Part shown: positions 24,928-42,970 of the stretch, piece after piece | Numbering within the stretch: the first letter of the stretch is position 1 | Layout of the letters: each line of letters begins with the position of its first letter | Source: Ureibacillus sinduriensis BLB-1 = JCM 15800 | Lineage (GTDB): Bacteria > Bacillota > Bacilli > Bacillales_A > Planococcaceae | Length of the DNA: 64,000 nucleotides | Assembly (NCBI RefSeq): GCF_000772955.1 | Contig: NZ_JPVO01000053.1 | Span: 186,001 to 250,000 of the forward strand | Reading direction: 5' to 3' | Program-made: the position numbers and the translations under genes | The notes under the pieces: generated by a model | What the model saw: only the letters and a program-made list of their open reading frames with translations | The model's database searches: none | What the model was told of the DNA's origin: nothing

Positions 24928-25150
24928 ATTTCTAAGATTACCCGTTGGCTGTTTGTGAGCTTTTGGTCACGGATGGAAAAGAAAGATGTGAGACCAAAAA
25001 TAGGAACAGGTTCCTATTAAAAATAAGAGTTATCGGCGATATGTATTCACTCTAGCAAGGTCTATCATGTACTTATCCTTGTAATTGACATTTTTTACAA
25101 CTCTAGAACGGATATATTATTTAACTAACCATGGAACTGGGAGGATTTTT

Positions 25151-28111
25151 ATGGAATTTTCAATCTTACCTAAAATGACGAAAAATAAAACCGGAAAACA
25201 ACACAAATCTACACTCCAAAGTGACAACTATCCGAATGCGGCCATCTTTCAGGCCATGTTCGAGAAGCATCCCGATGCCGTATTTACACTATCGCTCGAA
25301 GGTAAGGTGGATCTTTTCAATGCGTCATTACTTTCCATCTTCGGCTATTCAGAAAAAACAATTGTATCAGACTTTAATCATTTTTTCTTTCATCAAGAAG
25401 TTCAGAAATCGTTCGAATTGGCACTTAACGGCGAGGCACAAAGTATCATAGAACTTGTAAAACATAAGAACGGAAATGAAGTGAATATCGGTCTCACCTT
25501 GGTACCATTCATGAATCGGGACAAAGAGGTGCTTTTCATTTATGGAATGGCGCAAGATATCACCGGGTATGTCCAACATGAGCAAAAGATTCAAAATATC
25601 TTGAATCGATTGGAACTGGCCCAAAGCTGCGGGAATATTGGTTCGTGGGACTATGACATCGAGAAGGATGAGATTTATTGGTCGAACCAGCTCTATATCA
25701 TTTGCGGCAGGGAAATCGAGGAAGGTTATACACCCAATATCGCCGAAGGATTAGAATATGTTCATCCTGCCGATCGTGAAAAGTATTTAAACTATTTTAA
25801 TGATATTATCGAAAATGGCGCTGGAAATACACTTGAGTACCGGTTGCTTCGCGGGGATAATACAATCCGTTATGTTTATGAAAGAATTTCGGTAGTCAAA
25901 GATCCAACCGGAAAACCCAGTCGCTTGATTTGCAATACACAGGATATTACAGATAGAAAATTAGCAGAAAAAGAACTTCTGGAATCAAAACAAAGGTTTG
26001 AGCATATCTTTGATAATTTATCGCCGGGCATTCGATCTTACGATACAGTGAACGATCGAATTACTCTTGTTACGGCCGGCATTGAATTAATACTTGGCTA
26101 CCCAACTGAAATGTTTTACCAAAAGGGGAGTCTGGAAGATTTGATCCATCCGGAAGACAAACTGCATTATAGTAAATCTTATGCCGAAGTCTTGAAAGGA
26201 AAGGGCTTTGATATTCAGTATCGGGTTTTCCATAACAACGGGGACATCATTTGGGTCCACGACAAGACACTCCCTGTATTAAACGACCATGGGCAAGTGA
26301 TTCGGGTTGATGGAATTATCTCCAATATTACTGAGCATAAAAACTATGAAGACAAAATTCATCAACTCGCTTTCTATGATAACCTCACCAATTTGCCGAA
26401 TAGTATTTTGTTTAATCAAAAAGTCGAACATCTAATAGGACAAGCGAAACCGTTTACCGTCCTGTTCCTCGATTTGGACCGCTTCAGAAATATTAACAAT
26501 ACCCTCGGACATGAAATCGGGGATATTGTTTTGAAACAATTTTGTGAGCGTGTCAATAATTTATTGACTGGCACTTTCTTGTTTTCAAGGCTTGGAGGAG
26601 ATGAGTTCGGGCTCATATTATGGGAATATGATGAAAGCAACTATCCCGAATTGATTGCCAAGAAAGTAATCGATCATTTAAGCGACCCTTTTTTGGTAAG
26701 AGAATTTGAGCTTTACGTCTCAGCAAGTATCGGGAGTAGTGAGTTTCCTACTAATGGCAAAACGGCGGTCGAAGTTTTAAAAAATACGAGTTCTGCAGTC
26801 TTGCGGGCCAAACAAAATGGGAAAAACAGCTATCATATTTATTCGCCGACCCTCAATATATCTTCATTCAAAACGTTTGAATTGGAGCGTGATTTGAGAA
26901 AATCGATTGTGAATGATGAATTGGTTCTCCACTTTCAACCGAGGGTAGATGCCCAAACTGGCAAATTGCTTGGTGCGGAAGCGTTGGTTCGTTGGCAACA
27001 TCCTGTTTGGGGCTTGGTTTCTCCAGGAGAGTTTATTCCGATAGCAGAAGAAAGCGGTTATATAAATGAGATCAGTGATTGGGTATTCAAGGAAGTATGC
27101 CGCTCAATTGACAGGTGGAGGAAGGGGAATTTACAAATTGTACCGATTTCCATCAACATCACATCCCAAAGATTTTTAAAAAGTGATTGGGTTACATTGA
27201 TTTTGTCACTATTAAATAAATATAAAATTGAAGCTTCCCTAATTGAATTTGAAATTACGGAAACTACCTTGATCGAGCATGAGAAAGAAGTGGAATTTGC
27301 TATTCAGTTTTTAAAGGAACTTGGGATCAAAATCGCATTGGATGATTTTGGCACAGGCTACTCTTCTTTGGCGCATATTAGTGATTTCCCTATCGATACA
27401 ATCAAAATCGACAAATCGTTTACTCAGCTGATCAAGCAAGATGAAAAAATGGACATTATCATTATTTCTCTTATTTTCATGGCTAAAGGAATGGGAATGA
27501 ACCTTGTTGCAGAGGGTGTCGAGACAATCGAACAGCTGGAATTTTTAAAGGAACAAGGATGCAAAGAAATCCAGGGCTATCTTTTTAGTGAGGCTGTCCC
27601 GGAGGCAGAGTTCCAATTATTTTTGAAAAATATCTACCTGAAATCGAAGATTATTAGTGATACTCCAGAGCAAATGGAAAGAAGAGCATTTTCCCGAATC
27701 GAATTATTTTATCCATTAAGCAGCCAAATGACTTTAACATCTTTCCAAGGAAGAAAAGTGAAACTAGGTAAAACGAAAGTAGTCATCGACAGTATTGGCT
27801 TAGGTGGCCTAAAGTTTACATCCAATATGCAACTACCCGTTCGACCTGACGTGATGTATCTTTTCGAATGCACCATTATGAGTAATCCGATTGTCCTGAA
27901 TGGTTTCATCGTTTGGAAGACTGAAATTAAGGATGACTTTTTTGAATATGGAGTTGAGTTTTCAATCGATGAAAATGAAAGGAATCACTTACTAGAAATT
28001 CTCAGAAGGCTCTCTTTTGAACTAAAGCAACATGCGTTCGCTTCGAATTGTGATTTTGTGCACGAAGATAAATTTCACTACTTAAAAAATGTGGCCAATG
28101 GCGCCAGATAG
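25151..28111 (+). CDS. 3xPAS-GGDEF-EAL-PilZ c-di-GMP protein
   Basis: A 986-residue cytosolic protein. Three PAS/PAC units lie at about 28-140, 145-275 and 280-400 (PAC ends MAQDITGYV, NTQDITDRKL, GIISNITEHK). GGDEF: DNLTNLPNS, DLDRFRNINN, intact GGDEF at 482-486, no RxxD inhibitory site. EAL: AEALVRW with Glu610, SINITSQ, FEITETTL, DDFGTGYSS, IKIDKSF, AEGVET, complete. The last 140 residues are PilZ-like: the RxxxR motif at 845-849 (RAFSR) and IDSIGLGGLKF, a slightly altered D/NxSxxG motif, then a beta-barrel (VLNGFIVWKTEIKDDFFEYGVEF). PilZ domains bind c-di-GMP, so this enzyme may sense its own product or substrate. Start ATG 25151 behind GGGAGG; an upstream in-frame start at 25085 has no ribosome binding site. 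Confidence 0.9.
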   Translation: MEFSILPKMTKNKTGKQHKSTLQSDNYPNAAIFQAMFEKHPDAVFTLSLEGKVDLFNASLLSIFGYSEKTIVSDFNHFFFHQEVQKSFELALNGEAQSIIELVKHKNGNEVNIGLTLVPFMNRDKEVLFIYGMAQDITGYVQHEQKIQNILNRLELAQSCGNIGSWDYDIEKDEIYWSNQLYIICGREIEEGYTPNIAEGLEYVHPADREKYLNYFNDIIENGAGNTLEYRLLRGDNTIRYVYERISVVKDPTGKPSRLICNTQDITDRKLAEKELLESKQRFEHIFDNLSPGIRSYDTVNDRITLVTAGIELILGYPTEMFYQKGSLEDLIHPEDKLHYSKSYAEVLKGKGFDIQYRVFHNNGDIIWVHDKTLPVLNDHGQVIRVDGIISNITEHKNYEDKIHQLAFYDNLTNLPNSILFNQKVEHLIGQAKPFTVLFLDLDRFRNINNTLGHEIGDIVLKQFCERVNNLLTGTFLFSRLGGDEFGLILWEYDESNYPELIAKKVIDHLSDPFLVREFELYVSASIGSSEFPTNGKTAVEVLKNTSSAVLRAKQNGKNSYHIYSPTLNISSFKTFELERDLRKSIVNDELVLHFQPRVDAQTGKLLGAEALVRWQHPVWGLVSPGEFIPIAEESGYINEISDWVFKEVCRSIDRWRKGNLQIVPISINITSQRFLKSDWVTLILSLLNKYKIEASLIEFEITETTLIEHEKEVEFAIQFLKELGIKIALDDFGTGYSSLAHISDFPIDTIKIDKSFTQLIKQDEKMDIIIISLIFMAKGMGMNLVAEGVETIEQLEFLKEQGCKEIQGYLFSEAVPEAEFQLFLKNIYLKSKIISDTPEQMERRAFSRIELFYPLSSQMTLTSFQGRKVKLGKTKVVIDSIGLGGLKFTSNMQLPVRPDVMYLFECTIMSNPIVLNGFIVWKTEIKDDFFEYGVEFSIDENERNHLLEILRRLSFELKQHAFASNCDFVHEDKFHYLKNVANGAR

Positions 28112-28318
28112 CTGCTTGCTCTAAACATCAAATGAACATCTCAATGGAAAGAAGATCTTAAAGTAGATTTCTAGATTCATTATTCACTACTTTAGTCCTG
28201 ATATTCTAAATTAAAGTTATTTCCTCTAGGGAGTTTATATCTCCCATCCTTTTAAACACTATGGTATTCTAGTACTACCAAATTATTAGAGGTTAATAGT
28301 AAAGGGTGGGGAGAAAAG

Positions 28319-30385
28319 ATGAATCAAAAGGATCGAATAAACATTCTATTGGTAGATGATCGTCCGGAAAACCTATTAGCTTTGGAAGCAATCATAGAAA
28401 GAGATGAATATAATTTAATAAAAGCTTATTCAGGTGAAGAAGCACTCAAATATTTATTGAAATATGATTTTGCGGTCATTCTCCTTGATGTCCAGATGCC
28501 TGGTCTGGATGGATTTAGTACAGCCAAAATCATTAAGGCGCGAGAAAAAACAAAGCATATTCCGATTCTCTTCATTACGGCAAACAATCTTGATTCGGAA
28601 CACATTTTCATGGGGTATTCCGTTGGCGCCATTGATTATATTTTAAAACCTTTTGACCCTCTTATTTTGAAATCGAAAGTTGAAAGATTTGTGGAGCTCT
28701 ATCTGTTAAACAAGAAAATTGTCGCACAATCTAAAAGCCTCGAAGAAAAGAACCAAACGATAGAATATATGGCCTATCATGATGGGTTAACGAATCTACC
28801 GAATAGAAGAAAGTTTCATGACGTCCTGCTCCAAACTTTGACGAAGGCTAAACAGAGCAACGAGACGCTCGGATTGATGTATTTGGACTTAGACCGTTTT
28901 AAATCGGTAAATGATTCCCTCGGCCATGTAATCGGGGACAAGCTACTGCAACAGGTTTCCAAGAGACTTCTTAGTTCAGTTAGAAAGACGGACTTTGTCG
29001 CACGAATCGGTGGAGATGAATTTATCATACTTCTATCAAATAGTGATCGTGAAGGGTGTCTAGAAGTTGCTGAAACATTGTTAGACAGCTTTAAAGAACC
29101 TTTTTATATTGATAGTTTTGAATTTTACATGACAACTTGCATCGGGCTTTCCATTTTCCCTTATGATGCCGAAGATTCAAGCACTTTAATGAAAAATGCG
29201 GATGCCGCTCTATATCTTGCAAAAGAACAAGGGAAAAATAGATATAAGGTTTACCATTCAGGAATGAATATGGAGTCTTATCGAAAGTTCTTAATGCAAC
29301 ATGAGTTAAGGAGAGCAATTGAACTAGATCAATTTTCCCTTGTTTATCAGCCGAGGATCGATCTTCAGACGGGCAAGGTAGTCAATGCCGAAGCACTTAT
29401 TCGATGGAATCATCCCGAGTGGGGAATCGTCAGACCGGATGTTTTTATACCTATTGCTGAAGAGTCAAACTTTATATACGAAATTGATAAGTGGGTATTA
29501 AAAACAGTTTGCACACAACTCAATTGCTGGAAAGAACAGCTACCTTCCTTGAAAATATCCGTTAACTTTAATGCACAGCATTTTCTGCAAAGAAACCTGG
29601 TGGAACATCTGAGAGAAATTCTCGAAGCTTCAAAGGTGGATCCCTCTTTGCTGGAAATAGAAGTAACCGAGACGGCTCTTTTGCACAATGAAGAAATTGT
29701 CAAAAGTTCACTGGAGAAAATAAAGAAGCTTAATATTAATATTGCGCTGGATGATTATGGGACCGGCTATTCATCAATCAATTATTTGAGGGAATTTCCT
29801 TTTGATACCATCAAAATCGATAAATCATATATCCAGGAAATAACCGACCCACAAAAAAATAGCCGTATCATTGTCGAATCAATCATCACTCTAATTAAAA
29901 ATCTGAATTTCCGTGTCATTGCCGAAGGTGTGGAAACAGAAGATCAACTCAACTTGTTGAAAAAGATGCAATGTGATGAAATACAAGGCTACTATTATAG
30001 TCAACCATTGTCACCAGGTGAATTTGTTCAATATGCAAAGAGAAAGAACCACGAAAATATAAATACAGTCCCATTAAAGAATAAAAACCTCGATAATGTC
30101 ATTAGGTTGGATGCAACTGAGGAAATGGGAATCAATAAATCCCTCATTGCCCTCGCGATTCAAAAAGTTAAACAAGACAACTTGCTTTCCACCCGGGAAG
30201 TGGATGTCTTCTCACTAATTGTAGAGGGACTAAGCAACAAGGAAATATCGGAAAAACTATTTATAAGTGAACATACTGTAAAAAATCATATAACGAACAT
30301 TCTTTCAAAGTTGAATCTTTCCGATCGGGTTCAGGCAATCGCTTTAGTTTATGAAACATGTATTAATGAAAAAAAAGTTAGATAG
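28319..30385 (+). CDS. Response regulator REC-GGDEF-EAL-LuxR HTH fusion
   Basis: A 688-residue protein joining three functions. Receiver domain 8-125: acidic pair Asp13/Asp14, phospho-acceptor Asp57 in ILLDVQMPG, Lys110 in ILKPFDP. GGDEF about 150-310: DGLTNLPNRR, DLDRFKSVND, intact GGDEF at 231-235, with inhibitory RKTD five residues before. EAL about 325-570: AEALIRW with Glu358, SVNFNAQ, IEVTETAL, DDYGTGYSS, IKIDKSY, AEGVET. LuxR/GerE-type HTH 622-685: LSTREVDVFSLIVEGLSNKEISEKL then EHTVKNHITNILSKL. It should be phosphorylated by the kinase encoded next and combine c-di-GMP turnover with DNA binding. First gene of an apparent operon; GGGGAG precedes the ATG. Confidence 0.92.
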   Translation: MNQKDRINILLVDDRPENLLALEAIIERDEYNLIKAYSGEEALKYLLKYDFAVILLDVQMPGLDGFSTAKIIKAREKTKHIPILFITANNLDSEHIFMGYSVGAIDYILKPFDPLILKSKVERFVELYLLNKKIVAQSKSLEEKNQTIEYMAYHDGLTNLPNRRKFHDVLLQTLTKAKQSNETLGLMYLDLDRFKSVNDSLGHVIGDKLLQQVSKRLLSSVRKTDFVARIGGDEFIILLSNSDREGCLEVAETLLDSFKEPFYIDSFEFYMTTCIGLSIFPYDAEDSSTLMKNADAALYLAKEQGKNRYKVYHSGMNMESYRKFLMQHELRRAIELDQFSLVYQPRIDLQTGKVVNAEALIRWNHPEWGIVRPDVFIPIAEESNFIYEIDKWVLKTVCTQLNCWKEQLPSLKISVNFNAQHFLQRNLVEHLREILEASKVDPSLLEIEVTETALLHNEEIVKSSLEKIKKLNINIALDDYGTGYSSINYLREFPFDTIKIDKSYIQEITDPQKNSRIIVESIITLIKNLNFRVIAEGVETEDQLNLLKKMQCDEIQGYYYSQPLSPGEFVQYAKRKNHENINTVPLKNKNLDNVIRLDATEEMGINKSLIALAIQKVKQDNLLSTREVDVFSLIVEGLSNKEISEKLFISEHTVKNHITNILSKLNLSDRVQAIALVYETCINEKKVR

Positions 30386-30423: not shown

Positions 30424-33400
30424 ATGAAAATTAAGACAAAAATGTTATTGGCATTATCATCTCTGCCTATCCTGCTTCTATTGGTGATTGGTAGTGGATT
30501 TGTGAGGATTTCGCACTTAAATAACACAAGCGACGAGATCCATAAAGGCTTTGATTCATCTATCCTTGCAGGGTCTATTCGGGTAGACATTAAAGATCAA
30601 GGAATGAATTTAAGAAATTTAATCATCTACACAAATGAAAATGCCATCAACGATGAAATAATTAAAATAGAAGCAGAGTCAGAAAAAATCCAAAAAAATA
30701 TACAAACACTGGAACAAATTGCAACAAATAAGAAACAGAAGGAATTAGTCGGCAAATTAAACAGTGTAAATAGTGAGTTTGAAGCATATAAAAATCAAAT
30801 GGTATCACTAATTAATGCCAATAAAAAAGAAGAGGCAAGGCAATTGATCGATGAAAGTTCCGAACAGCTGCATGAAAATTTTACGCTTGTTCTTAGGGAG
30901 ATAACTTCCGATTATGATGCAGAACTAGAGAAATCACTGAACAACATGGTCGACAATACACAAAGCGAAACAAGCTTAACTTCCATCATGCTGGCTGTCG
31001 CAATCGTCATTATTATGTTGATTATCTTGAGACAGGTTTTGTCCTTTACGAGACGAATTACTACTATGTCAAAAATTATGAAGAACATTGCGGCAGGGAA
31101 GATAAGCCTCACGACCAAAATTGATGTCATTTCCAATGATGAGTTTGACGGAGTGGCCAACTCCTTCAACCAAATGACGGATACTCTGGATAAACAAATC
31201 CAAATAGAAAAAGAATTAACGTGGAGGAAGTCCCATATAGCGGAAATATCATCCTCCATTACCGGGAAACGCGACCTGGAGAAGTTGGGGAAAACGTTGC
31301 TTTCAAAAGTTGTTCCTTTAATTGAAGGAAACTACGCTGTATTTTATGTTAGAGATATTAAAACACATAACAATGAGGTCTTTCATCTCATCTCGACCTT
31401 TGCACTGCAGCCACAAGCATTGAAAAAGACAATCCAACCAGGCGAAGGGCTTCTAGGGCAAGCAATTATCGAAAAAAGACCAACCATTCTTACCGATGTG
31501 CCAACTGACTATCTTCGCATCTCTTCAGGTCTTGGTGAAGCAACTCCGGCGGAAGTAGTAATCTTGCCCATTTTGTTTGAGGGAGAAGTAAATGCAGTGC
31601 TTGAAATCGCTTCTTTAAAAGCAATCAGCCCTACGCACCATGTCTTCCTGGAAGAATTGGTGTTAAATTTAGGAATCGTGCTAGAGAGTGTGATTGGCAG
31701 GATACAATTAACAAGCCTGCTTGAAGAAACGCAAACACTAATGGAGGAGATTCAAGCACAATCCGAAGAATTACAAAATCAGCAAGAAGAATTAAAAGCT
31801 ACCAATGAAGAATTGGAAGAACAAACTCAAAGTTTGCGCCACTCGGAAACGAAACTGCAAATGCAGCAAGAGGAACTGGAGCAGACAAATGCAGAGCTAG
31901 AGGAAAAAGCAAAAAGTCTTGAAAAGCAAAACATGAAGTATGAAGAGGCAAACCGAATCGTGGAGCAAGCGAGAAGAGAGTTGGAAATCAAAGCAGAGCA
32001 GCTTGCTTTAAGTTCAAAATATAAATCGGAATTTTTGGCTAATATGTCTCATGAATTGCGCACACCATTGAATAGTCTAATTATCCTCTCAAAATTATTA
32101 GCAGATAACCCAAGTGATAATTTATCCGACAAACAGGTCGAATATGCAAAAACAATCTATTCATCTGGCAATGATTTGTTGGTTTTAATTAATAATATCT
32201 TGGATTTAGCAAAGATCGAATCCGGAAAAACTGACATCATACCTACCGATGTTTCCATCCAAGAGTTGGTAGAATTCGTTGAAAGTAATTTTGCCGCAAT
32301 CGCAGAGAGCAAAAATATCAGTTTCAAGGTCCATGTAGAAGAGAATGCCCAAGCGGCAATTTTCACTGATCAAATTCGTATTCAACAAATATTAAAGAAT
32401 CTGCTTTCCAATGCATTCAAGTTTACTTCCACAGGAGAAGTAGCCTTGTTCATTTCGCAAGATTCATATAAAACTAGAAAATACGGAAAACCGATTATGG
32501 CATTTTCAGTCGTCGATACGGGTATAGGGATATCAAATGATAAACTAGAACTCATCTTTGAGGCTTTCCAGCAAGCAGATGGAACGACAAGCAGAAAATA
32601 TGGCGGTACAGGTTTGGGGTTGTCCATCAGTAGAGAGCTCGCAGCACTTCTGGGAGGAGTAATAGAGGTAGAAAGTAAAGAAGGAAAGGGAAGTAAATTT
32701 ACGTTCTATGTCGGTAACTTCGAGGGCCATCCCTATGTGGAAGAACCGATTTTGCGCCCATCGGAAGTGGCAGCTGCCGAGTTGGACGACAATACGGGTA
32801 TATTGCAACATGATATTCAGGCAGTTAGTGAACCAATCACTAGTCAATCTACACAAACCAGCCACATCAAACGTTTGCTAATTGTCGATGATGACCTTAA
32901 CCAACGAAATAGTTTGATGGAGCTCATCGGGAACATGGACTTCATAATTAAAGGAGTATCATCAGGCAAAGAAGCAATTGAAACATTGAAGGTAGAGGCA
33001 ATCGATTGTATCATCCTTGACTTGGGCTTACTCGATACCAATGGTTTTGATCTACTGGCACAAATAAGAAATAATGATGCCAATCAGCACATTAGTATCT
33101 TTATTTACACTGGCCGCGATTTATCGCTTAAAGAAGAAAATGAGTTAAATAAACTCGCCCAAACGATTATTATAAAAAATGAGCATTCTCCCGATAGATT
33201 AGTGGCGGAGCTCCAAGATTATCTTGAAGCTTCTAGCAGGCAGTCGGACTTTGTGACCGTAGATGCGCAACAAGTCCAGCCGAAGCAAGGTCTATTAGGA
33301 AAGAAAATTTTGCTTGTCGATGATGATATTCGGAATGTCTTTGCCTTATCGAGCGTTCTAGAACAGGCAGGAATGGATGTCGTATTTGCGGAAAACGGAT

Positions 33401-33663
33401 TGGAAAGCCTTGCGATGTTGGATGCGCATCCAGACGTTGAGATCGTATTAATGGATATCATGATGCCTGAAATGGACGGATACGAAGCCATTGCAAAAAT
33501 TCGCCAAATGCCGATCCACCAAAACTTGCCGGTGATAGCCCTTACTGCGAAAGCGATGAAAGAAGACCGCGAAAAATGCCTGGAAATTGGTGCATCCGAT
33601 TATATTGCAAAACCTGTGGAGCCCGACCAATTAATTTCTCTTATAACAGTATGGTTATATTAA
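30424..33663 (+). CDS. Hybrid sensor histidine kinase, 4HB-HAMP-GAF-HisKA-HATPase-REC-REC
   Basis: A 1079-residue membrane kinase. Helix 1 at about 7-27, an extracellular four-helix-bundle sensor at 30-185, helix 2 at about 186-205 (TSIMLAVAIVIIMLIIL), HAMP at about 206-260, GAF at about 275-425, and a coiled coil at about 435-535 with repeated EELxxxxEELEE. HisKA with phospho-acceptor His543 (SHELRTPLNSL). The ATPase has LLSNAFKFTSTGE, VDTGIGISND and GGTGLGLSISREL. Receiver 1: RLLIVDDD, Asp866. Receiver 2: KILLVDDD, Asp1011 in LMDIMMPEMDGY, Lys in DYIAKPV. It starts 38 bases after the REC-GGDEF-EAL-HTH gene and is its likely phospho-donor. The layout resembles chemosensory-type hybrid kinases found with CheR/CheB. 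Confidence 0.92.
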   Translation: MKIKTKMLLALSSLPILLLLVIGSGFVRISHLNNTSDEIHKGFDSSILAGSIRVDIKDQGMNLRNLIIYTNENAINDEIIKIEAESEKIQKNIQTLEQIATNKKQKELVGKLNSVNSEFEAYKNQMVSLINANKKEEARQLIDESSEQLHENFTLVLREITSDYDAELEKSLNNMVDNTQSETSLTSIMLAVAIVIIMLIILRQVLSFTRRITTMSKIMKNIAAGKISLTTKIDVISNDEFDGVANSFNQMTDTLDKQIQIEKELTWRKSHIAEISSSITGKRDLEKLGKTLLSKVVPLIEGNYAVFYVRDIKTHNNEVFHLISTFALQPQALKKTIQPGEGLLGQAIIEKRPTILTDVPTDYLRISSGLGEATPAEVVILPILFEGEVNAVLEIASLKAISPTHHVFLEELVLNLGIVLESVIGRIQLTSLLEETQTLMEEIQAQSEELQNQQEELKATNEELEEQTQSLRHSETKLQMQQEELEQTNAELEEKAKSLEKQNMKYEEANRIVEQARRELEIKAEQLALSSKYKSEFLANMSHELRTPLNSLIILSKLLADNPSDNLSDKQVEYAKTIYSSGNDLLVLINNILDLAKIESGKTDIIPTDVSIQELVEFVESNFAAIAESKNISFKVHVEENAQAAIFTDQIRIQQILKNLLSNAFKFTSTGEVALFISQDSYKTRKYGKPIMAFSVVDTGIGISNDKLELIFEAFQQADGTTSRKYGGTGLGLSISRELAALLGGVIEVESKEGKGSKFTFYVGNFEGHPYVEEPILRPSEVAAAELDDNTGILQHDIQAVSEPITSQSTQTSHIKRLLIVDDDLNQRNSLMELIGNMDFIIKGVSSGKEAIETLKVEAIDCIILDLGLLDTNGFDLLAQIRNNDANQHISIFIYTGRDLSLKEENELNKLAQTIIIKNEHSPDRLVAELQDYLEASSRQSDFVTVDAQQVQPKQGLLGKKILLVDDDIRNVFALSSVLEQAGMDVVFAENGLESLAMLDAHPDVEIVLMDIMMPEMDGYEAIAKIRQMPIHQNLPVIALTAKAMKEDREKCLEIGASDYIAKPVEPDQLISLITVWLY

Positions 33664-33681: not shown

Positions 33682-34533
33682 ATGGATCAAACCACTTTAC
33701 AAAATAATAACCAGGGAGATGAACTTGAGAAACTGGAGATTCATCTTCTCCTTGAGGGCATTTACTTAAAGTATGGATATGATTATCGCGATTATGCCTA
33801 TCCTTCGATAAGAAGGCGGGTATGGCATCGGGTCCATGGAGAGAAATTAACCACGATATCCCGCCTATTGGATAAAGTTTTGCATGATGCAACCTGCTTT
33901 GAGAGACTGATAGCCGACTTTTCCATCAACGTTACTGAAATGTTTCGAGATTCCTTGTTTTTCAAATCGTTTAAAGATAATGTCATTCCCCAACTAAAAA
34001 CGTATCCATCTATTCGGATCTGGCATGCGGGTTGCTCTACCGGGGAAGAGGTCTATTCAATGGCCATCCTTTTACATGAGGCGGGGCTTTATGAAAAAAC
34101 GAAAATTTACGCGACGGATATTAACACAGATGTTTTAAAAACCGCGAAGAATGGATGTTTTTCTTTGGAGCGTATGAAAAAATATACAAACAATTATATG
34201 CAAGCGGGTGGTGAACAAGCATTTTCGGATTATTATAAAGTCACGGATGGCGGAGTGAAATTCCATCCCTACTTGACGAAAAATGTAGTATTTGCCCAAC
34301 ATAATCTTGTAACAGACCACTCGTTCAATGAGTTTCATGTCATACTTTGCCGTAATGTATTAATATACTTCAACAAGGACTTACAAAATAAGGTGCATCA
34401 TCTTTTCCATCAAAGTCTAGGGAAATTTGGCGTCTTATGTCTTGGCAATAAAGAATCACTGAACTACACAAATTATTATAAGTTGTATGAAGAGATTAGT
34501 TCGTCGCAAAAAATTTATAAAAAAATAAAATAA
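33682..34533 (+). CDS. CheR-type protein-glutamate methyltransferase
   Basis: A 283-residue SAM-dependent methyltransferase. The N-terminal CheR helical domain (about 15-85) includes YGYDYRDYAYPSIRRRVWHR. The catalytic domain has INVTEMFRDSLFFKSF, the SAM loop IWHAGCSTGEEVYSMAILL, the acidic ATDINTDVL strand end and VILCRNVLIYFNKDLQ, all hallmark CheR segments. CheR adds methyl groups to Glu residues of chemoreceptors. Here it starts 18 bases after the hybrid kinase, so the substrate may be that kinase's sensor or coiled-coil region, or the MCP 1.4 kb downstream. No CheB methylesterase is visible. A strong terminator follows. Confidence 0.9.
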   Translation: MDQTTLQNNNQGDELEKLEIHLLLEGIYLKYGYDYRDYAYPSIRRRVWHRVHGEKLTTISRLLDKVLHDATCFERLIADFSINVTEMFRDSLFFKSFKDNVIPQLKTYPSIRIWHAGCSTGEEVYSMAILLHEAGLYEKTKIYATDINTDVLKTAKNGCFSLERMKKYTNNYMQAGGEQAFSDYYKVTDGGVKFHPYLTKNVVFAQHNLVTDHSFNEFHVILCRNVLIYFNKDLQNKVHHLFHQSLGKFGVLCLGNKESLNYTNYYKLYEEISSSQKIYKKIK

Positions 34534-34582: not shown

Positions 34583-34709
34583 GTAGCGATAATGTTTGCT
34601 TCGATGACATTTCATTGCCTAAAGGCTCCCTGAATGATGAGCAGGGACGTTTTCACCCCCTTCTGAATACATTAGTAATTGGAGAAAAATGTCGAATAGG
34701 GGGCGTGCA

Positions 34710-35681
34710 ATGAAAGCACTTTTCATTTTGGTTATGTTCGTATTATTAGTTGCGTGTACCGACCAAACGGAACGTATCACAGAAAATCCTCTCATAGAAA
34801 AAGACGATGAATTCGTTAATACAGAAAAAACGCTTGAGAAGCCGGTCTTGGAAGAAGAAAAAAAACCTTCTTATTTAATTCATCTAATCGACCCGAACAC
34901 AGAGGAAACTATCACTACCATATCCACAAAAGAGCTAGGTTTTCATACGGATTATGCCAATTATGTCAACCAAATTGAACTGCTGGCAAAAGACCTTGCA
35001 CGGGGGACAGAGTCAAGAGAGGGCTATGACCGACGAATGGTCCTGGATTTTGTGAATGAAAAAGGCGAACTCGTCGAAGGGACGCCTATGCTTGTATTAA
35101 AAGAGAGTGAGCTCATCGAAAGGATTCTTGCTGTTTCCCCGGATGGAGGAAATGTTGAATTACCGCTCTATCTAACAGAAACCGGCTATGATCGAACCGA
35201 ATTCGACACCCTGGATGAGGTAATTGTGGCTTCCTATACGACTTATTACGATAGTTCTGTGAGTGGTCGTGCGCATAATATCAAGCGATCTTCGGATGCG
35301 ATATCCAGAGTGATTGTTGGAGTGGACGATTATTTTTCGTTTAATACTACGGTAGGCCCAAGAACAAAAGAAACCGGCTATCAAGAAGCACTGGAAATCA
35401 TCAATGGCGAATTTGTAACAGGAATCGGCGGGGGAATCTGTCAGACGTCCTCGACACTTTTTAATGCTGTAGATCAATTGGGTGTTTCCTATGTTGAGAG
35501 GCATCATCATTCACGTGACATTGGTTATGTTCCAAGGGGAAGGGACGCAACCGTCTCCTATGGAACACTCGACTTCAGATTTCAAAATACAACCGGCATC
35601 CCTTTTATGATCGTTTCGACAACTTCCGGAAATTCGATAACTGTCGAAATCCGCACCTCACAAGAATATGTCGATCATTGA
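34710..35681 (+). CDS. VanW-family lipoprotein
   Basis: A 323-residue predicted lipoprotein. MKALFILVMFVLLVAC gives lipobox LVAC with Cys16 as lipid anchor, followed by an acidic linker and a first domain (about 50-160). The VanW domain (about 170-318) is clear: GRAHNIKRSSDAISRVIVG, YFSFNTTVGPRTKETGYQ, the signature GIGGGICQTSSTLFNAV, ERHHHSRDIGYVPRGRDATV, DFRFQNTTGIPF. The GGGxCQ(T/V)STTL motif is near-invariant in VanW proteins, whose exact role in the envelope is unresolved. Start: ATG 34710 behind AGGGGGCG rather than ATG 34689. A close paralogue without lipobox is at 42020; the two bracket the MCP and the germination operon. Confidence 0.88.
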   Translation: MKALFILVMFVLLVACTDQTERITENPLIEKDDEFVNTEKTLEKPVLEEEKKPSYLIHLIDPNTEETITTISTKELGFHTDYANYVNQIELLAKDLARGTESREGYDRRMVLDFVNEKGELVEGTPMLVLKESELIERILAVSPDGGNVELPLYLTETGYDRTEFDTLDEVIVASYTTYYDSSVSGRAHNIKRSSDAISRVIVGVDDYFSFNTTVGPRTKETGYQEALEIINGEFVTGIGGGICQTSSTLFNAVDQLGVSYVERHHHSRDIGYVPRGRDATVSYGTLDFRFQNTTGIPFMIVSTTSGNSITVEIRTSQEYVDH

Positions 35682-35702
35682 TGTCAGTTGAATGGTACAA
35701 TT

Positions 35703-35729
35703 AGACACTTTCAAAGGTGTCTTTTTTTG
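35703..35729 (+). terminator. Terminator of the first VanW gene
   Basis: GACAC (35704-35708) pairs with GTGTC (35717-35721), followed by seven T. Confidence 0.7.
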
Positions 35730-35960
35730 TTTGGAAAGCAAATTAATTCAAATAAGCTATCAATAATTTTAAAAAGTTATACTTTATAACTAATTTAAAT
35801 TTTTCTTTTAGTAGTAATGTTCTAAATTTATATTTTATTAATATTATTTTTAGTATATAATTAATTCTGAAAATATTTCTCAAAAAGGGAGGGTTTTACA
35901 ATTTAAACTTCATTATTCAAACAATTGAATATTGGAATCGCATCCGGGGGGGCTACTTTA

Positions 35961-38069
35961 TTGATACCAAAATATAAAAAGCCAAAAAAGAAGAAGAATC
36001 CAGTTAACCAAACTGAGAAGAAAAAACAGAAAATTCAAAAGGGTTCAACGAAGATTCGAAAGCAAAAGAGTCAGAAAGAACTAAGCAAGCAAGGACGAAT
36101 GATCAGTATCCGAACTAGATTCATAAGTGCCATTCTATTGATTTCGATCATCCCGCTAATCGCTGTTGCATTTTTTATTCAAAATAATAATAGTGGTATT
36201 TTGATAGAGAAAGAACAAGATGCCATGCAGAAACTTGCAGTGAGTAAGGCGCAGTCCATCGAACAATGGTTCAGCTCGCAATTATCCGAAATGCAAGTAG
36301 CTGCTGCTAGTGATGTCATGAAAACAATGAATGCTGAACGAATCTTGCCTTATATCAATATGTTGGAAAATCGTTCAGATGAATTTGAAACGATGTTTGT
36401 TATTGATAAAGAAGGAACGGTATTGACCCACACATTAAAAGGGAGTATCGGGGCGGATTATAGCAAGCAAAGTTATGTACCGAGTGTATTTGGAGGTAAA
36501 TCTGTATTCTCCGAGGTATTAATTTCTGAAGAGACAGGGAATCGGGTTGTCATTGCGGCCACGCCGATCATTAATGACAAAGGGTTAATTGTAGGAATAC
36601 TTGCTGGTGCAGCAAACCTGGAAGATTTGATTGATACATATTTGGCGGAGGAAGAAAGTTCCAACTCAATCACACTGGTTGACGGGCAAGGCATTATTCA
36701 AGAACATCCTTCAGACGATTTGATTGGAAGTAAGTTTGAGGAAGCTAATATCGGAGCTTTAAGATCATATATAGAGAAAAGTACTCAAGAAGCAGGCATT
36801 TCTAGATTTGATTATGAGAATGAAGAGTACATCATCACCTACACACCGATTCAATCGATCGGCTATGGACTAAGTATTTATACACCTTCCGACGAAATAC
36901 TTGCTGACTCAAATGCTCTAAAAAATACGACAATCCTCATGATTTGTATTGCAGCTGTCCTCATCGTTCTAGTAACTTTTATTATTGTAAGAAGCATTAC
37001 GAAGCCTATTCTTGTCCTTTCAGCAAAAATGGAAAGAATCGCCACTGGGGATCTTACGACTAGGGTTATTAATACAAAACGACGAGATGAAATTGGGCAA
37101 CTCTCAAACAACTTCAATCTAATGATTGATAATATTAAGCATCTTGTCTCAGAAATTAAAAAGGCGTCGGATAACGTACTTTCTTCTTCCGAAGAGCTAT
37201 CGGCAAGTTCGGATGAAACTGTTCAAGCTACAGAACAGATTGCAGCTTCGATCCAAACGATTGCGTCCAACACGGAAACACAAGTCAGCTTTACGGACAA
37301 CGCAAAAACAGTCGTTACGAATATATCTAATGGTATAACGGCAATCGCGGATAATATCCAACAGACGAACGAAATTTCGAGCAAAGCAGTTGATGCTTCC
37401 AGCTCTGGTTCCGAAGTGATTGGCAATACGATTACCTTTATGAAAACGGTTGAAGAAAAAACGAATGCAGCATCTGATACAATCAATGGACTTGGGAAAA
37501 AATCATCGGAAATCAATGACATCATTTCTGTAATTACCGACATTGCCAGCCAAACAAACTTGCTAGCACTTAATGCGGCTATTGAAGCTGCAAGGGCAGG
37601 CGAATATGGAAGAGGTTTTGCCGTTGTTGCCGACGAGGTGCGCAAACTTGCTGAACAATCAAGTAAAGCATCCGGACAAATTAGTGATTTGATCAAGGAT
37701 ATACAAAATGAGATTGCTTTATCCATTCAAGCAATGGATGAGGGAAATTCAGCCGTAAACGATGGAAAAGAATTAGTGATAAGAGCTGGCAGTGAATTTG
37801 AAAATATTGCACAAGCTGTCGACAAAGTTTCCATTCATATGAAAGAAATACTAAATGAAAGTCAACACATTAAAAGCTCTTCAGAAAAAATGGTTGATGA
37901 AATTGAACATATATCCAAAATATCGATTGAAGCTTCACGCAATACGCAAGAGATTGCTTCGGCTTCCGAACAACAAAATGGTTCAATGGAAGAGATCGCG
38001 GCTTCAGCGGATAATTTAGCAATTATGGCGGAGAATCTGAAATCCGCTGCGCAAGCTTTTAAAATGTAA
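35961..38069 (+). CDS. Methyl-accepting chemotaxis protein with Cache-type sensor
   Basis: A 702-residue chemoreceptor. Residues 1-45 form an unusual Lys-rich cytoplasmic tail ([13 protein letters not shown]...). TM1 is at about 52-71 ([20 protein letters not shown]), the extracellular dCache-type sensor at about 75-315 ([33 protein letters not shown]), TM2 at about 321-341, then HAMP, and a long signalling helix with the conserved hairpin tip [20 protein letters not shown] and [19 protein letters not shown]. Start: TTG 35961 because seven G lie eight bases upstream; an earlier in-frame TTG at 35925 lacks a site. The substrate class is unknown. CheR at 33682 may methylate it. A very strong terminator follows. 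Confidence 0.92.
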
Positions 38070-38073
38070 AGTT

Positions 38074-38118
38074 ATAGGCAATTTTTTCGTTAATTAAGCG
38101 AAAAAATTGCCTATTTTC
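38074..38118 (+). terminator. Very strong terminator of the MCP gene
   Basis: A 15-16-bp stem with core TAGGCAATTTTTTCG (38075-38089 with 38098-38112) and an 8-base loop, followed by TTTTCTTT. Confidence 0.9.
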
Positions 38119-38192
38119 TTTGCAAAATTAAAAAGTATAGTTCAATTCTTTATCGACATCCTATGTAAAGATAGGAAATGGAGAGAAGTTTT

Positions 38193-39722
38193 ATGTTCAG
38201 AGAACCAAAAAAAAATGCAACGAATTCAAATGAACAACAGAATAAAGAGGAACCTGAAAAATTACCAATTCCAGCATCGAAAAGGGAGTTTCTCGATGTT
38301 CTTAAAGAGAAGGTTCATTCACCCGCAGATTTGGTTATCAAAAATATTAGTGCCACAGTTACTATTGTCTATCTGGACTTTCTCATCGACGGGAAAATTT
38401 TGAACGAACAAATATTGCCTATTTTAGAAAAAGAACAAAGTGCCCCACCAAAAACGATAAAAGAAAAACTTCCTATTGCGGAAATAGACTTATCTGCGGA
38501 GCTTAATAAAAGTGTATTGGAAATGCTGATAGGTGCTGTATTAATTCATTCGGAAGGCCATTCCGAACTGGTCATTGCCAAAATATCCTCCTACCAATCG
38601 AGAGGTTTATCCGCACCGGAGAACGAATCCCAAGTAATCGGTTCACAGGTGGGCTTTAATGAAAACCTGGCGACAAATATATCATTGATTCGCCGTTATA
38701 TTACCAATCCCAATTTGTGTAATGAAAAGTTTACTTTAGGGAAAGACACGATGACTTCATTATCGGTGCTATATATTGACGGCATTGCATCCGAGCAGCA
38801 TGTCAATACAATACGTCAAAGGATTGAAGATCTTGATATTTCGGACTTGCTTGACAGTGCCGTATTATCGGAATTGATAGATGATAACTCATTTTCTATG
38901 TTTCCTCAGTTGTTATTAACAGAAAGACCCGATAGATTCTGCGATGGCCTTCTAAGCGGGAAAGTAGGGATTGTTGTTAACGGCAGTTCCATGGCGATCC
39001 TCTGTCCATATACATTCATTGAATTTTTTCAAAGCAGGGAAGACCAAAACCTTCGTTGGCAAATAGCAACATTTATCCGCTTGCTACGTTTTATGGCAAT
39101 GATAATTTCTATTTTTTTCACCCCTATCTATGTTGCGGCCCTAACCTTCCATTATGAAGTTATCCCGCAGCCATTATTGGTTCCTTTGAGTGAATCAAGG
39201 GCAATTGTTCCTTTCCCTCCAATTATTGAAGCTTTGGTGCTGGAATTGATTATTGAGTTGCTTCGGGAGGCCGGGGCAAGATTGCCAACAAAGGTCGGGC
39301 AAACGATCGGGATTGTTGGTGGTATCGTACTGGGAACAGCAGCTGTTGAAGCAGGTATCACAAGCAACATATTGATTATTATCATCGCTTTATGCGCACT
39401 AGCATCGTTTACAACCCCTAATTACCTGATGGGTAATGTCATTAGGATATTACGTTTTCCAATCATAATATTGGCAGGTTTTTGGGGATTTTTCGGTGTA
39501 ATGCTGGCGTTTTGTTTCCTTATTATTCATTTATTAAGACAATCGAGCTTGGGAGCACCGTACATGGCACCGATTTACCCGCCAAGGTGGAAAGACTGGC
39601 CGGATAGTTTTATCAGGATGCCATTACCGTTTATTAGTCGCCAATCAGTAAATTCAAGAGCACAGAGTAACAATCAGGAAACAAACGAAAACCTTGCAAA
39701 AGAAGAGAAGGTGATCAGGTGA
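38193..39722 (+). CDS. Spore germination receptor A subunit (GerAA/GerKA family)
   Basis: A 509-residue GerA-family A subunit. The cytoplasmic N-terminal half (about 1-285) has the conserved SPADLVIKNI, VTIVYLDFLIDGKI, YIDGIASEQHVNTIRQRI and LTERPDRFCDGLLSGKVGIVVNGSSMAILCP. The membrane half (about 295-470) has five to six helices including VALTFHYEVIPQPLLVP and PTKVGQTIGIVGGIVLG. With the B and C subunits it forms the inner-membrane receptor that detects nutrients and starts germination, acting in the spore. Start: ATG 38193 behind GGAGAGAA; ATG 38178 lies on that site. It overlaps the B gene by four bases (GTGA). Expression in the forespore (sigma G) is expected from the family. Confidence 0.93.
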   Translation: MFREPKKNATNSNEQQNKEEPEKLPIPASKREFLDVLKEKVHSPADLVIKNISATVTIVYLDFLIDGKILNEQILPILEKEQSAPPKTIKEKLPIAEIDLSAELNKSVLEMLIGAVLIHSEGHSELVIAKISSYQSRGLSAPENESQVIGSQVGFNENLATNISLIRRYITNPNLCNEKFTLGKDTMTSLSVLYIDGIASEQHVNTIRQRIEDLDISDLLDSAVLSELIDDNSFSMFPQLLLTERPDRFCDGLLSGKVGIVVNGSSMAILCPYTFIEFFQSREDQNLRWQIATFIRLLRFMAMIISIFFTPIYVAALTFHYEVIPQPLLVPLSESRAIVPFPPIIEALVLELIIELLREAGARLPTKVGQTIGIVGGIVLGTAAVEAGITSNILIIIIALCALASFTTPNYLMGNVIRILRFPIIILAGFWGFFGVMLAFCFLIIHLLRQSSLGAPYMAPIYPPRWKDWPDSFIRMPLPFISRQSVNSRAQSNNQETNENLAKEEKVIR

Positions 39723-40837
39723 AATCCACTCTCCAAATCGGCAATGACGAGAAGTTTAATGCCTCTCTCTTCTTTTTTGTCATTGCAGCAGCTCAAGTAG
39801 GTGTCGGTATTCATGGTTTTCAGCGTGTCGTTGTAAAAGATGCCGGTCATGATGCTTGGATTTCTGTTATATTAGCTGCTCTATTTTCACATATTGTTGT
39901 TTTTTTCATGATAAAGACGCTCGAATTATACCCTTCCAACGACCTATATGGTATTCATCTGGACATATTCGGCAAGTTCATCGGCAGTATTGTAAATATC
40001 ATTTATGTTCTCTATTGTACATTTGCTTTCTATTCAGTAATCAAGAACTATATTGAAGTCATCAACACATGGGTATTTCCCGATCTGTCACAGTCATTCA
40101 TTACAACGGTTTTGTTAATACTTGTAATTTACGCATTTACCGGCGGGTTAAGAGTCATGCTAGGAGTATGCTTTTTCAGTTTCATGACGGGCCTTTGGAT
40201 CTTGATTGTGGTGTACATGCCATTGAAGTATGCACATTATAATCATTTGTTGCCTCTATTTGGCCACGATATAACAAGCATTTTTAAAGGGGCTTATTCG
40301 ATGACCTTTACAATCGTCGGATTTGAGGTCATCAATACACTTTATCCATATGCCAAGGAAAAAAATAAAGTTCAAAAATACGTTCACCTTGCTCTTCTTT
40401 GTACATTATTCATTTATTTGTCCGTCATACTCGTATCACTTGTTTATTTCAGTGAAGCCCAATTGGAAAGAACTCTTTGGGCAACCCTGACTTTATTTAC
40501 CGTTATCAAACTCCCGTTTATAGAAAGAATCGAAATTATCATTATTTGTTTCTGGACCATTATTATATTGCCGAATCTTTGTTTATTTGCTTGGTCAGCT
40601 TATCGCGGCGTAAAACGATTTAAAAATGTTAAGGGAACGACGTTTATTTGGCTTTTTAGCATCTTGATGTTTATCGCCAACATTCCGATGCAATCACGTA
40701 CCCAAATAGATGATATAAACAATTTTTTTGCACAAATCGCTTTTGTCATCGTTTTTCTCTATCCTATCCTGCTCTATATCATGGCAAGTTTAAAAAATGT
40801 ATTGAGAAAAGGGGGAAGAAAAAATGAAAAAGGGTAA
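39719..40837 (+). CDS. Spore germination receptor B subunit (GerAB/GerKB permease)
   Basis: A 372-residue integral membrane protein of the amino-acid-permease-like GerAB family, with about ten helices. It begins with cytosolic KSTLQIGNDEKFN and the typical AAAQVGVGIHGFQR in helix 1. ELYPSNDLYGIHLDIFGKF and LFGHDITSIFKGAYSMTFTIVGFEV match conserved family positions. This subunit binds the germinant in studied GerA receptors. Start: GTG 39719 overlapping the A-subunit stop; the Shine-Dalgarno (AGAAGAGAAGG) lies inside the A gene. It overlaps the C gene by 14 bases. Germinant specificity cannot be read from sequence. Confidence 0.92.
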   Translation: MKSTLQIGNDEKFNASLFFFVIAAAQVGVGIHGFQRVVVKDAGHDAWISVILAALFSHIVVFFMIKTLELYPSNDLYGIHLDIFGKFIGSIVNIIYVLYCTFAFYSVIKNYIEVINTWVFPDLSQSFITTVLLILVIYAFTGGLRVMLGVCFFSFMTGLWILIVVYMPLKYAHYNHLLPLFGHDITSIFKGAYSMTFTIVGFEVINTLYPYAKEKNKVQKYVHLALLCTLFIYLSVILVSLVYFSEAQLERTLWATLTLFTVIKLPFIERIEIIIICFWTIIILPNLCLFAWSAYRGVKRFKNVKGTTFIWLFSILMFIANIPMQSRTQIDDINNFFAQIAFVIVFLYPILLYIMASLKNVLRKGGRKNEKG

Positions 40838-41942
40838 TATTCTCATTGTTTTGCTACTTAGTTGCATTCTCGTCACCGGTTGTACAAGTCAGGAAATCCT
40901 TGAAAGGATAGGTCTGGTTACCTTGATTGGTTATGATGCAGCAGAAGAAGATAAAGTGACAGCTACCTCCGTCATCAGGCAAATTAATCCTGAACTGCAA
41001 AGTAAAGTGGAAGTCCAATCCGAAACTGAAAGCACAAGTCGGGGGACTCGCGTTAAGGTGGATATGAAAACTTCTAAAAAACTGGCAGCCGGCCAATTGC
41101 GAGTCATACTATTCGGTGAGGACTTGGCGAAAAATGGCATAGAAGATGCATTGCACACCACCATGATGAATAATGAAATTAGTACAAGCATTTATTTGGC
41201 TGTTGTAAAAGGTACGTCAAAATCGCTTCTTGAGTACCCTTACAAGGATGTTACGGATGTCGGCCAACATATTTACAATTTGATGGACCACAATATTGAA
41301 CAACAGCACATTATTTCCTCGACATTGCACGAAATTGTCCGGGATAATTACTCTGAAGTGAGAAATTTTGCTTTGCCCATTCTACGCAAAAACGGCGAAT
41401 TCATTCAATTCGATGGAACTGCTTTTTTTAGCCATGGGAAAATGGTTGGGAATCTTCCGGCTGGGGATAACTTCTACATCTTAATGATGCAGGATAATTT
41501 CAAAGACAGTACGCTCGAGTTAGTTTTAGATGGACAATCCATCGACTCATCCAAATTTGAAGAAAAGCAATTGCAAATCGCCATCGATTCCATCAAAACC
41601 AAAAGAAAAATCAAAGTGGTGAATCCGGAACAAAATGAGTTTGACCTGACCATCGATATGAAATGCAGACTATTGGAAATCAATTCTTTAATTCCAACCA
41701 GTGATGCAAAGTTGTTGGAAAAAATTGAAAAAGCTATAAACGAAAAGGTAAAGAATGAACTTTCACGGATCCTGAAATATAGTCAAGAGGTGAATTCCGA
41801 TATTTACGGTTTCGGGGAACAGTATCGAGCGCAAGTTCGGGGTGCAAAATTAACTGACCAAAAGTGGAGAGAAATGTTCCAGGACATGAAAGTAAATGTA
41901 GATGTTGATGTTGAAATCATTCGGAACGGCGTGTTTGAATAA
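40824..41942 (+). CDS. Spore germination receptor C subunit, Ger(x)C lipoprotein
   Basis: A 372-residue lipoprotein. Signal peptide LIVLLLSCILVTGC with lipobox VTGC, Cys20. The Ger(x)C domains follow: ILERIGLVTLIGYDAAEEDK, the RGTRVKVDMKTSKKLAAGQLRVILFGEDLAKNGI segment, SSTLHEIVRDNYSEVRNFALPIL, GTAFFSHGKMVGNL, and the C-terminal domain with FGEQYRAQVRGAKLTDQKW. It is the outer-face subunit of the germinant receptor. GGGGGAAG precedes the ATG inside the end of the B gene. Gene order A-B-C matches the gerA/gerB type of B. subtilis rather than gerK (A-C-B). Confidence 0.93.
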   Translation: MKKGNILIVLLLSCILVTGCTSQEILERIGLVTLIGYDAAEEDKVTATSVIRQINPELQSKVEVQSETESTSRGTRVKVDMKTSKKLAAGQLRVILFGEDLAKNGIEDALHTTMMNNEISTSIYLAVVKGTSKSLLEYPYKDVTDVGQHIYNLMDHNIEQQHIISSTLHEIVRDNYSEVRNFALPILRKNGEFIQFDGTAFFSHGKMVGNLPAGDNFYILMMQDNFKDSTLELVLDGQSIDSSKFEEKQLQIAIDSIKTKRKIKVVNPEQNEFDLTIDMKCRLLEINSLIPTSDAKLLEKIEKAINEKVKNELSRILKYSQEVNSDIYGFGEQYRAQVRGAKLTDQKWREMFQDMKVNVDVDVEIIRNGVFE

Positions 41943-42019
41943 TTAGTGCCCCTTCATATTTCGATAGGTTTGGGGAATGCTAAGCCTATGAACATAGGTT
42001 AGGTTAGGTGTAAAGGCAA

Positions 42020-42970
42020 ATGAAAAATAATCAGGTTCTCTTTATTGTACTCGTCCTTTTTCTTGCATTGAATAGCACGGAAATTGCAGCTGAGGAAGCA
42101 ACTGAGGGTGATTCGTTCGCTGAAAGAACGATTGCAATCATCGATCCATTCACAAAAGAAATAGTTAAGAAAATATCTCCTTCCGATTATGAATTGGTAG
42201 CCGACTTTTCACGATTTAAAAATGACGTTGAAAAATGGGTCCATCAATTTGCAAATGGTACCGAGAACAGCGGTGGTTATTTGAAACCGATGATTCTGGA
42301 TAAAATAGGTGATCACGGAGAAATCATAAAAGGCAGACCACTTATCAAAGTAGATGAAGAGGGGCTTGTGGAACAAATTATTCAACATTCTTTTTCAGGA
42401 GGAGAAATTGAATTACCTCTAAAGTATATACAAAGTGATTATAGCGAAAAGGATATTCCTTATCTTAACGAAGTGGTGCTGGCATCCTATAGCACAAACT
42501 TTAAAGCGTATAAAACCGGAAGAAGCAAAAACATCGAATTATCTGCACTAGCCATTGATAATGTGATTGTGGGCAATAATGACATTTTTTCGTTTAATTC
42601 CGTTGTCGGCCCAAGAGACGTCGCAACAGGCTATCAAATGGCACCTGAGATTATTAAAGGTAAAATGGTCATGGGAATTGGTGGTGGAATTTGTCAAACA
42701 TCTTCCACTTTGTTTAATGCGGTGGATAAATTGGATCTAAACATTATTGAAAGGCATAATCACTCAAAGGACGTAGGATATGTTCCGAAAGGAAGGGATG
42801 CAACGGTATCCTTCGGTGGTTTGGATTTTAAATTTCAAAACACATTAGGCGTTCCTTTCCTGGTGAAAGCTTATTATCAACCAGGCACTATAACCATTCA
42901 AATTAAAACTTCCAAAGAATACGAACAAATCTTGAAAAATGAACTAAGTCAATTACCTGAAGACACGTGA
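42020..42970 (+). CDS. VanW-family exported protein downstream of the germination operon
   Basis: A 316-residue protein with a cleavable signal peptide (VLFIVLVLFLALNSTEIAA-EE) and no lipobox. It shows the same two-part layout as the VanW lipoprotein at 34710: N-terminal domain with IIDPFTKEIVKKISPSDYEL, VanW domain from about residue 165 with GRSKNIELSALAIDNVIVG, DIFSFNSVVGPRDVATGYQ, GIGGGICQTSSTLFNAV, ERHNHSKDVGYVPKGRDATV. It starts 77 bases after the C subunit with no terminator between, so it is likely the fourth gene of the germination operon. A wall or coat role during sporulation or germination is inferred from this position. Confidence 0.88.
   Translation: MKNNQVLFIVLVLFLALNSTEIAAEEATEGDSFAERTIAIIDPFTKEIVKKISPSDYELVADFSRFKNDVEKWVHQFANGTENSGGYLKPMILDKIGDHGEIIKGRPLIKVDEEGLVEQIIQHSFSGGEIELPLKYIQSDYSEKDIPYLNEVVLASYSTNFKAYKTGRSKNIELSALAIDNVIVGNNDIFSFNSVVGPRDVATGYQMAPEIIKGKMVMGIGGGICQTSSTLFNAVDKLDLNIIERHNHSKDVGYVPKGRDATVSFGGLDFKFQNTLGVPFLVKAYYQPGTITIQIKTSKEYEQILKNELSQLPEDT

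Follow-up and report, generated by a model that had tools for sequence, protein, structure and literature searches.

The window analyzed here, a stretch of 64,000 nucleotides of DNA from Ureibacillus sinduriensis BLB-1 = JCM 15800, encodes a response regulator with four distinct domains, which is the first gene of an operon that continues with a hybrid histidine kinase and then a CheR-type methyltransferase. The features of this operon are:

28319..30385, + strand: response regulator REC-GGDEF-EAL-HTH (LuxR/GerE), 688 aa (ORF, Pfam, ortholog alignment)
28343..28681, + strand: REC domain, residues 9-121, with Asp57 (Pfam Response_reg, 2.5e-23)
28772..29242, + strand: GGDEF domain, residues 152-308 (Pfam, 1.4e-47), with the A-site GGDEF at 231-235 and the I-site RxxD at 222-225
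29303..30007, + strand: EAL domain, residues 329-563, including Glu358 (Pfam, 6.6e-77)
30182..30346, + strand: LuxR/GerE-type HTH, residues 622-676, with the recognition stretch ISEHTVKNH (Pfam, 1.6e-20)
30424..33663, + strand: RsbK-like hybrid histidine kinase, 1079 aa (Pfam, S-helix alignment, His543 motif)
33682..34533, + strand: RsbM-like CheR methyltransferase, 283 aa (Pfam)

The regulator ORF (28319-30385) runs from an ATG to a TAG stop codon, and each of its four Pfam domains scores over the curated cut-off, which bears out the claim of the earlier note that REC, GGDEF, EAL and HTH are united in one chain of 688 residues. The presence of the REC phosphoacceptor together with GGDEF and EAL on a single chain makes it a GGDEF-EAL response regulator, and the score of its HTH against PF00196 (72.9 bits; gathering score 23.5) places this domain in the NarL/LuxR (GerE) class, with GerE (1fse), VraR and NarL among the related solved structures. 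RsbY is a PP2C output protein; no PP2C or SpoIIE domain was matched by Pfam in the regulator, which thus falls outside the RsbY-type REC-PP2C proteins. In an AlphaFold2 model computed from a 19-row alignment (A3; mean pLDDT 86.5, pTM 0.46), the REC domain is predicted to be followed by a long helix (114-153), the GGDEF and EAL domains and a low-confidence stretch (580-603, pLDDT <50), after which a helix (599-621) would lead into a four-helix HTH (625-684; helices 625-635, 640-647, 651-665 and 670-684). As the pTM is low, the relative placement of the domains in this model is unreliable. An internally initiated, separately translated HTH is unsupported: the reading frame is unbroken in all 21 aligned orthologs, the nearby in-frame ATG (Met603) is a Met in the window copy only (1/21), and the one other internal start considered, Leu597, is a Leu in 7/21 at the residue level.

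These 21 orthologs, comprising 17 copies from the same genus and four from a second genus (g18), show strict conservation of several sites. In the REC domain D13, D14, D57, T87 and K110 are invariant (21/21), and the stretch ISEHTVKNH of the HTH is identical in all 21. Asp57, GGDEF 231-235 and Glu358, which had been described as intact, were correctly identified and are likewise invariant. Among the positions that we take to be catalytic, metal or I-site residues of the two enzyme domains, the GGDEF motif is kept in 21/21, the cyclase metal residue Asp190 in 17/21 (Asn in the other four), and the I-site residues Arg222 and Asp225 in 18/21 and 21/21. This retention would suit a protein acting chiefly as a diguanylate cyclase, or with cyclase and phosphodiesterase activities in balance, whose HTH does no more than tether it to the chromosome or a single promoter so that c-di-GMP signaling stays local, and the intact GGDEF motif of the window copy could indeed support an active cyclase or a bifunctional enzyme. 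However, while Asp190 has become Asn in four of the 21, the ten EAL residues examined (E358, N416, E446, E448, D478, D479, K499, E536, E539 and Q556) are all invariant, and we regard this alternative as decidedly improbable. The pattern favors instead an enzyme engaged mainly in hydrolysis of c-di-GMP. The copy at L045 has LNLYRFK instead of LDLDRFK in its GGDEF domain, with Asp changed at both 190 and 192; these two altered positions suggest that it has lost the cyclase activity. Among the 17 genus copies the best-conserved domains are REC and HTH (mean pairwise identity 86% and 80%), followed by GGDEF (65%) and EAL (61%). Because the HTH is conserved above the enzyme domains, this argues that DNA binding by the regulator matters.

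The association with the kinase and CheR genes is also conserved. Across 19 wide neighborhoods (15 of the genus and four of g18) holding 20 regulator copies, together with the window, the kinase lies directly after the regulator in 21/21 copies and CheR follows the kinase in 20/21, the lone copy without CheR being in a tandem duplication in genome G002. At this locus (L035; G002:C10:19000-38900) the regulator-kinase pair is duplicated in tandem and CheR is kept by one copy only. In the 19 single-copy loci the intergenic gaps, as measured from longest-ORF starts, are 14-48 nt between regulator and kinase and -8 to 59 nt between kinase and CheR. A CheR of 63-100% identity (E<=1e-60) is found in exactly those 16 of 25 genus genomes that have the regulator and in none of the other nine, a raw co-occurrence that is uncorrected for relatedness; a separate CheR of 52-55% identity occurs in six genomes at the same threshold. 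This context was missed by the earlier note; as the operon is conserved and its kinase and CheR resemble RsbK and RsbM, the input of the regulator is probably a methylation-tuned kinase.

The kinase shows the layout 4HB_MCP-HAMP-GAF-S-helix-HisKA(His543)-HATPase-REC-REC. RsbK of Bacillus cereus contains CHASE3, HAMP, GAF, S-helix, HK, CA and REC, and its S-helix is methylated by RsbM in an RsbK-M-Y module (PMC4574943). The window kinase resembles RsbK in its membrane sensor, in its HAMP, GAF and S-helix segments, and in a kinase core with REC, and the operon resembles RsbK-RsbM in that a CheR-type gene adjoins the kinase and the output protein bears a REC domain. In contrast to RsbY, the output in the window is REC-GGDEF-EAL-HTH rather than REC-PP2C, and, unlike RsbK, the window kinase has two REC domains; its sensor scores as 4HB_MCP, whereas that of the RsbK-like kinase from the same genome scores best as CHASE3. 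A second set of genes in this genome (L161) encodes a REC-SpoIIE/PP2C protein, a CheR and a CHASE3-GAF-HK-REC kinase, and a SigB gene, scoring over the family cut-off, lies on a separate contig (C53). When the S-helices of the two kinases are compared, LMEEIQAQSEELQNQQEEL in the window kinase lines up with MTEELQAQSEELQSQSEEL in the RsbK-like kinase from the same genome. Since a [SAT]EELQ.Q-like stretch is present in 21 of 22 author-chosen, aligned kinases with every output type, this motif marks the type of stalk and not RsbK alone. With a hybrid kinase that combines GAF, S-helix, HK core and REC, and a CheR-type neighbor in 20/21 copies, the window operon is, at the level of sequence, a clear parallel of RsbK-RsbM, and we infer that its CheR might methylate the S-helix of the kinase.

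Kinase-CheR stalks of this kind carry interchangeable regulators. In 34 author-chosen neighborhoods, drawn from 64 CheR matches in 62 of 398 genomes of the class, the output is REC-PP2C in 21, the HTH type in one (G438, L162) and neither in 12. Among the best 80 of 584 loci, at least 12 have, next to a hybrid kinase and CheR, a REC-GGDEF-EAL protein in which no HTH was detected, namely ten proteobacterial loci (gammaproteobacterial examples being L056, L057 and L060) and two from Domibacillus (L076, L088), and at least four more have REC-GGDEF beside kinase and CheR. The HTH went undetected with Pfam in L076 and L057, and elsewhere with window-derived queries, which are less sensitive than Pfam. 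These REC-GGDEF-EAL loci share the kind of stalk and the core of the regulator with the window, but, unlike the window regulator, show no C-terminal HTH. In the Coxiellaceae MAG with L056 (L056:7890-11550), the hybrid kinase and CheR are followed by two successive REC-GGDEF-EAL genes. A REC-kinase protein is a further type of output, and Pfam confirmed all 16 of the 16 tree rows so labeled. The tree of CheR proteins was built by a quick method from 68 author-chosen rows, leaving out near-duplicates and incomplete loci, and includes 18 of the roughly 25 HTH-type modules collected; all 18 lie on one side of a single branch (SH-aLRT 97). The output labels, which are of six types, require seven changes on this tree, compared to a minimum of five and a mean of 41.5 for shuffled labels. 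As the HTH-type modules form one clade in the CheR tree, there was probably a single gain, or a single retention, of the HTH in a lineage of Bacilli with a stalk-linked REC-GGDEF-EAL protein.

The full-length regulator occurs in 16 of 25 genomes of the genus, the own genome included, with two copies in G002; the remaining genus copies share 59-80% identity with that of the window and span the query from positions 1-5 to 684-688. A family search at E<=1e-140 yields matches in 20/261 genomes and 2/19 genera, i.e. 16 genomes of the own genus and four of g18, and the order-level search covers the same 261 genomes. Domain scans of two of the four g18 proteins gave REC-PAS-GGDEF-EAL-HTH for both. 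In the class sample of 398 genomes eight have a match at E<=1e-130, a limit below which more divergent members may fall, and the match extends into the HTH only in the own genome and G438. A scan of named genomes with two short peptide patterns, which covers the best 80 of 584 relatives and possibly leaves out the own genus, recovers at least six REC-GGDEF-EAL-HTH loci, found in Bacillus sp. FJAT-27245, Neobacillus piezotolerans, Sporosarcina thermotolerans (a genus placed in Caryophanaceae in the NCBI taxonomy), Neobacillus citreus, Ornithinibacillus halotolerans and a MAG labeled Paenibacillus (L054). Pfam analysis of five of these six loci reveals an extra PAS domain in four, the one without PAS being L054, which is in this respect like the genus of the window. 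Over all scans, PAS-bearing versions come from Sporosarcina-like, Neobacillus and Ornithinibacillus genomes. No kinase was seen beside the L054 regulator, whose contig stops about 3 kb beyond it. Among plasmids, 26 records match at E<=1e-100 and none covers >=80% of the query; the sole match to reach the HTH region among the ten plasmid matches listed, from Geoalkalibacter (H2), was discarded because it spans two annotated genes, one for an EAL protein and the other for a protein with RHS repeats. The Pullulanibacillus match (L061, residues 148-675) was also rejected as an HTH fusion, Pfam giving PAS-GGDEF-EAL-PAS-histidine kinase. This 1142-aa protein of Pullulanibacillus pueri (L061:8769-12194; PAS-GGDEF-EAL-PAS-HisKA-HATPase) joins a GGDEF-EAL enzyme and a histidine kinase in one chain. 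In the open-licence literature, searched by title and start of abstract, no description of REC-GGDEF-EAL-HTH was found among the matches listed, which is a weak absence, and a search by hyphenated architecture name gave EAL-HTH only, again among the matches listed. The regulator is composed of ordinary domains in an uncommon combination, within a conserved operon. The earlier note had held the joining of both outputs to be rare; this stands as far as the counts from the family and the class sample go, but the union of a c-di-GMP enzyme with a DNA-binding domain as such has precedents in PdeL and VieA.

VieA of Vibrio cholerae has a C-terminal HTH, giving REC-EAL-HTH, and a linked hybrid kinase, VieS; VieA is not known to have a GGDEF domain or a CheR partner. 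A receiver with an EAL output is common to VieA (PMC5498567) and the window regulator. PdeL (YahA) of Escherichia coli likewise unites a complete EAL domain with an HTH of the LuxR type on one chain; its HTH is N-terminal and linked to the EAL, with a receiver or GGDEF domain unmentioned in the available text (PMC5052742), whereas the HTH of the window regulator is C-terminal. PdeL turns on its own expression when c-di-GMP is low, and trigger phosphodiesterases were described from PdeR and PdeL (PMC5052742). With an EAL domain that has complete catalytic residues and an HTH on one chain, the window regulator has the domain make-up of a PdeL-like trigger phosphodiesterase, and the earlier suggestion of a trigger enzyme agrees with the conservation pattern to the extent that the HTH and the phosphodiesterase residues are kept and the cyclase metal site is altered in some copies. 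The two outputs might instead be uncoupled, with phosphorylation governing an ordinary LuxR-type factor and an ordinary GGDEF-EAL enzyme in parallel. Residues 564-617, which link the EAL domain to the HTH, are very variable (26% mean pairwise identity among the 17 genus copies) and in part disordered in the model, so that the HTH may be loosely tethered, and HTH-less REC-GGDEF-EAL proteins are found in stalk relatives such as the Domibacillus and proteobacterial loci. Nevertheless, the predicted helix 599-621 right before the HTH could relay dimer signals, and c-di-GMP interferes with transcription activation by PdeL (PMC5052742); we therefore consider uncoupled outputs unlikely.

A comparison of upstream regions within the genus revealed a candidate promoter of the regulator gene:

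28241..28270, + strand: candidate promoter, CTCC, 15 nt and extended -10, TATGGTATTCT (genus upstream comparison)

The extended -10 (TATGnTATn[CA]T) is present in 17/17 genus upstreams, about 48-68 nt before the start, and the exact CTCC-N15-extended -10 in 9/17, with start positions uncertain for 5/17. In 2000 rounds of shuffling, the exact form was found 0 times and the relaxed form on average 0.0045 times (12/17 observed), statistics which overstate the element because its pattern was derived from these same 17 upstreams. With a spacer of 14-16 nt the element has a single match in the own genome, that of the window, and a backwards-read control also has one there; genus-wide there are 17 matches in 16/25 genomes versus five control matches. 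Nine of these 17 are at the regulator and eight elsewhere, six of the latter (in six genomes) preceding a gene that reads as transglycosylase/PBP-like. In G009 and G010 the element stands before this transglycosylase/PBP-like gene and the regulator is absent. The combination occurs in 0/10 upstreams of other lineages, where some starts are uncertain and looser -10 forms went uncounted, and the exact extended -10 among these ten is confined to L063. As a binding site for the HTH the element is a suggestion at most, being non-specific (six unrelated upstreams and the control matches). It is possible that the regulator controls its own promoter.

Taken together, we give reasonable, though not strong, credence to the view that the phosphorylated regulator is the output of an RsbK/RsbM-like stalk and couples c-di-GMP turnover, mainly hydrolysis, to transcription. 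The membrane hybrid kinase would sense a stress-type input, with CheR probably adjusting its activity by methylating the S-helix, which is rich in Glu/Gln, and would pass phosphate to Asp57 of the regulator. Phosphorylation probably alters how the dimer packs, by way of the long helix 114-153, and would in this way control the C-terminal LuxR-type HTH, the GGDEF-EAL enzyme, or the two together. Most likely this enzyme chiefly hydrolyzes c-di-GMP, its GGDEF domain responding to GTP or cyclizing it weakly, and c-di-GMP, bound or hydrolyzed by the EAL domain, could tune the binding of target DNA as in trigger phosphodiesterases. Points in favor are the regulator-kinase-CheR order (20/21), the co-occurrence of CheR (16/25), the 80% identity of the HTH, the ten EAL residues kept in 21/21 while Asp190 is Asn in 4/21, and the S-helix alignment with the precedents of RsbM (PMC4574943) and of self-activation by PdeL (PMC5052742). 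Against it stand the intact cyclase motif of the window copy and the want of specificity of both the S-helix motif and the candidate promoter. Furthermore, PMC5498567 reports the phosphodiesterase activity of VieA, and by inference that of BsmR, to be independent of receiver phosphorylation, and the receiver may therefore control mainly DNA binding.

More tentatively, the operon might represent a rewired RsbK/RsbM-type stalk, which turns on the sigma-B stress response in B. cereus, in which a methylation-adapted, phosphorylation-gated trigger phosphodiesterase is itself the transcription factor, beside a separate RsbK/RsbM/RsbY-like set and SigB. Such a protein of the Bacilli would read phosphorylation and c-di-GMP together and act directly on promoters, so that His-Asp phosphorylation, adaptive methylation and c-di-GMP would all feed into transcription through one protein, with no separate receptor for c-di-GMP. 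Control of DNA binding in cis by c-di-GMP turnover has been argued, in the review PMC5052742, from E. coli PdeL, and these operons would offer a compact system for asking whether it occurs.

Two further PAS-GGDEF-EAL genes lie upstream of the regulator (25085-28111 and 10474-13257), giving three GGDEF-EAL proteins within about 20 kb. In the upstream PAS-GGDEF-EAL protein of 1008 aa, the last 170 or so residues match no Pfam family, and at the corresponding place L044 has an EAL-only protein of 276 aa. The region after the operon (34689-42970) contains the genes for a chemoreceptor and for two proteins with VanW domains, as well as a spore germination operon of the gerA type at 38178-41942, and germination genes are found near the regulator operon in many loci of the genus.
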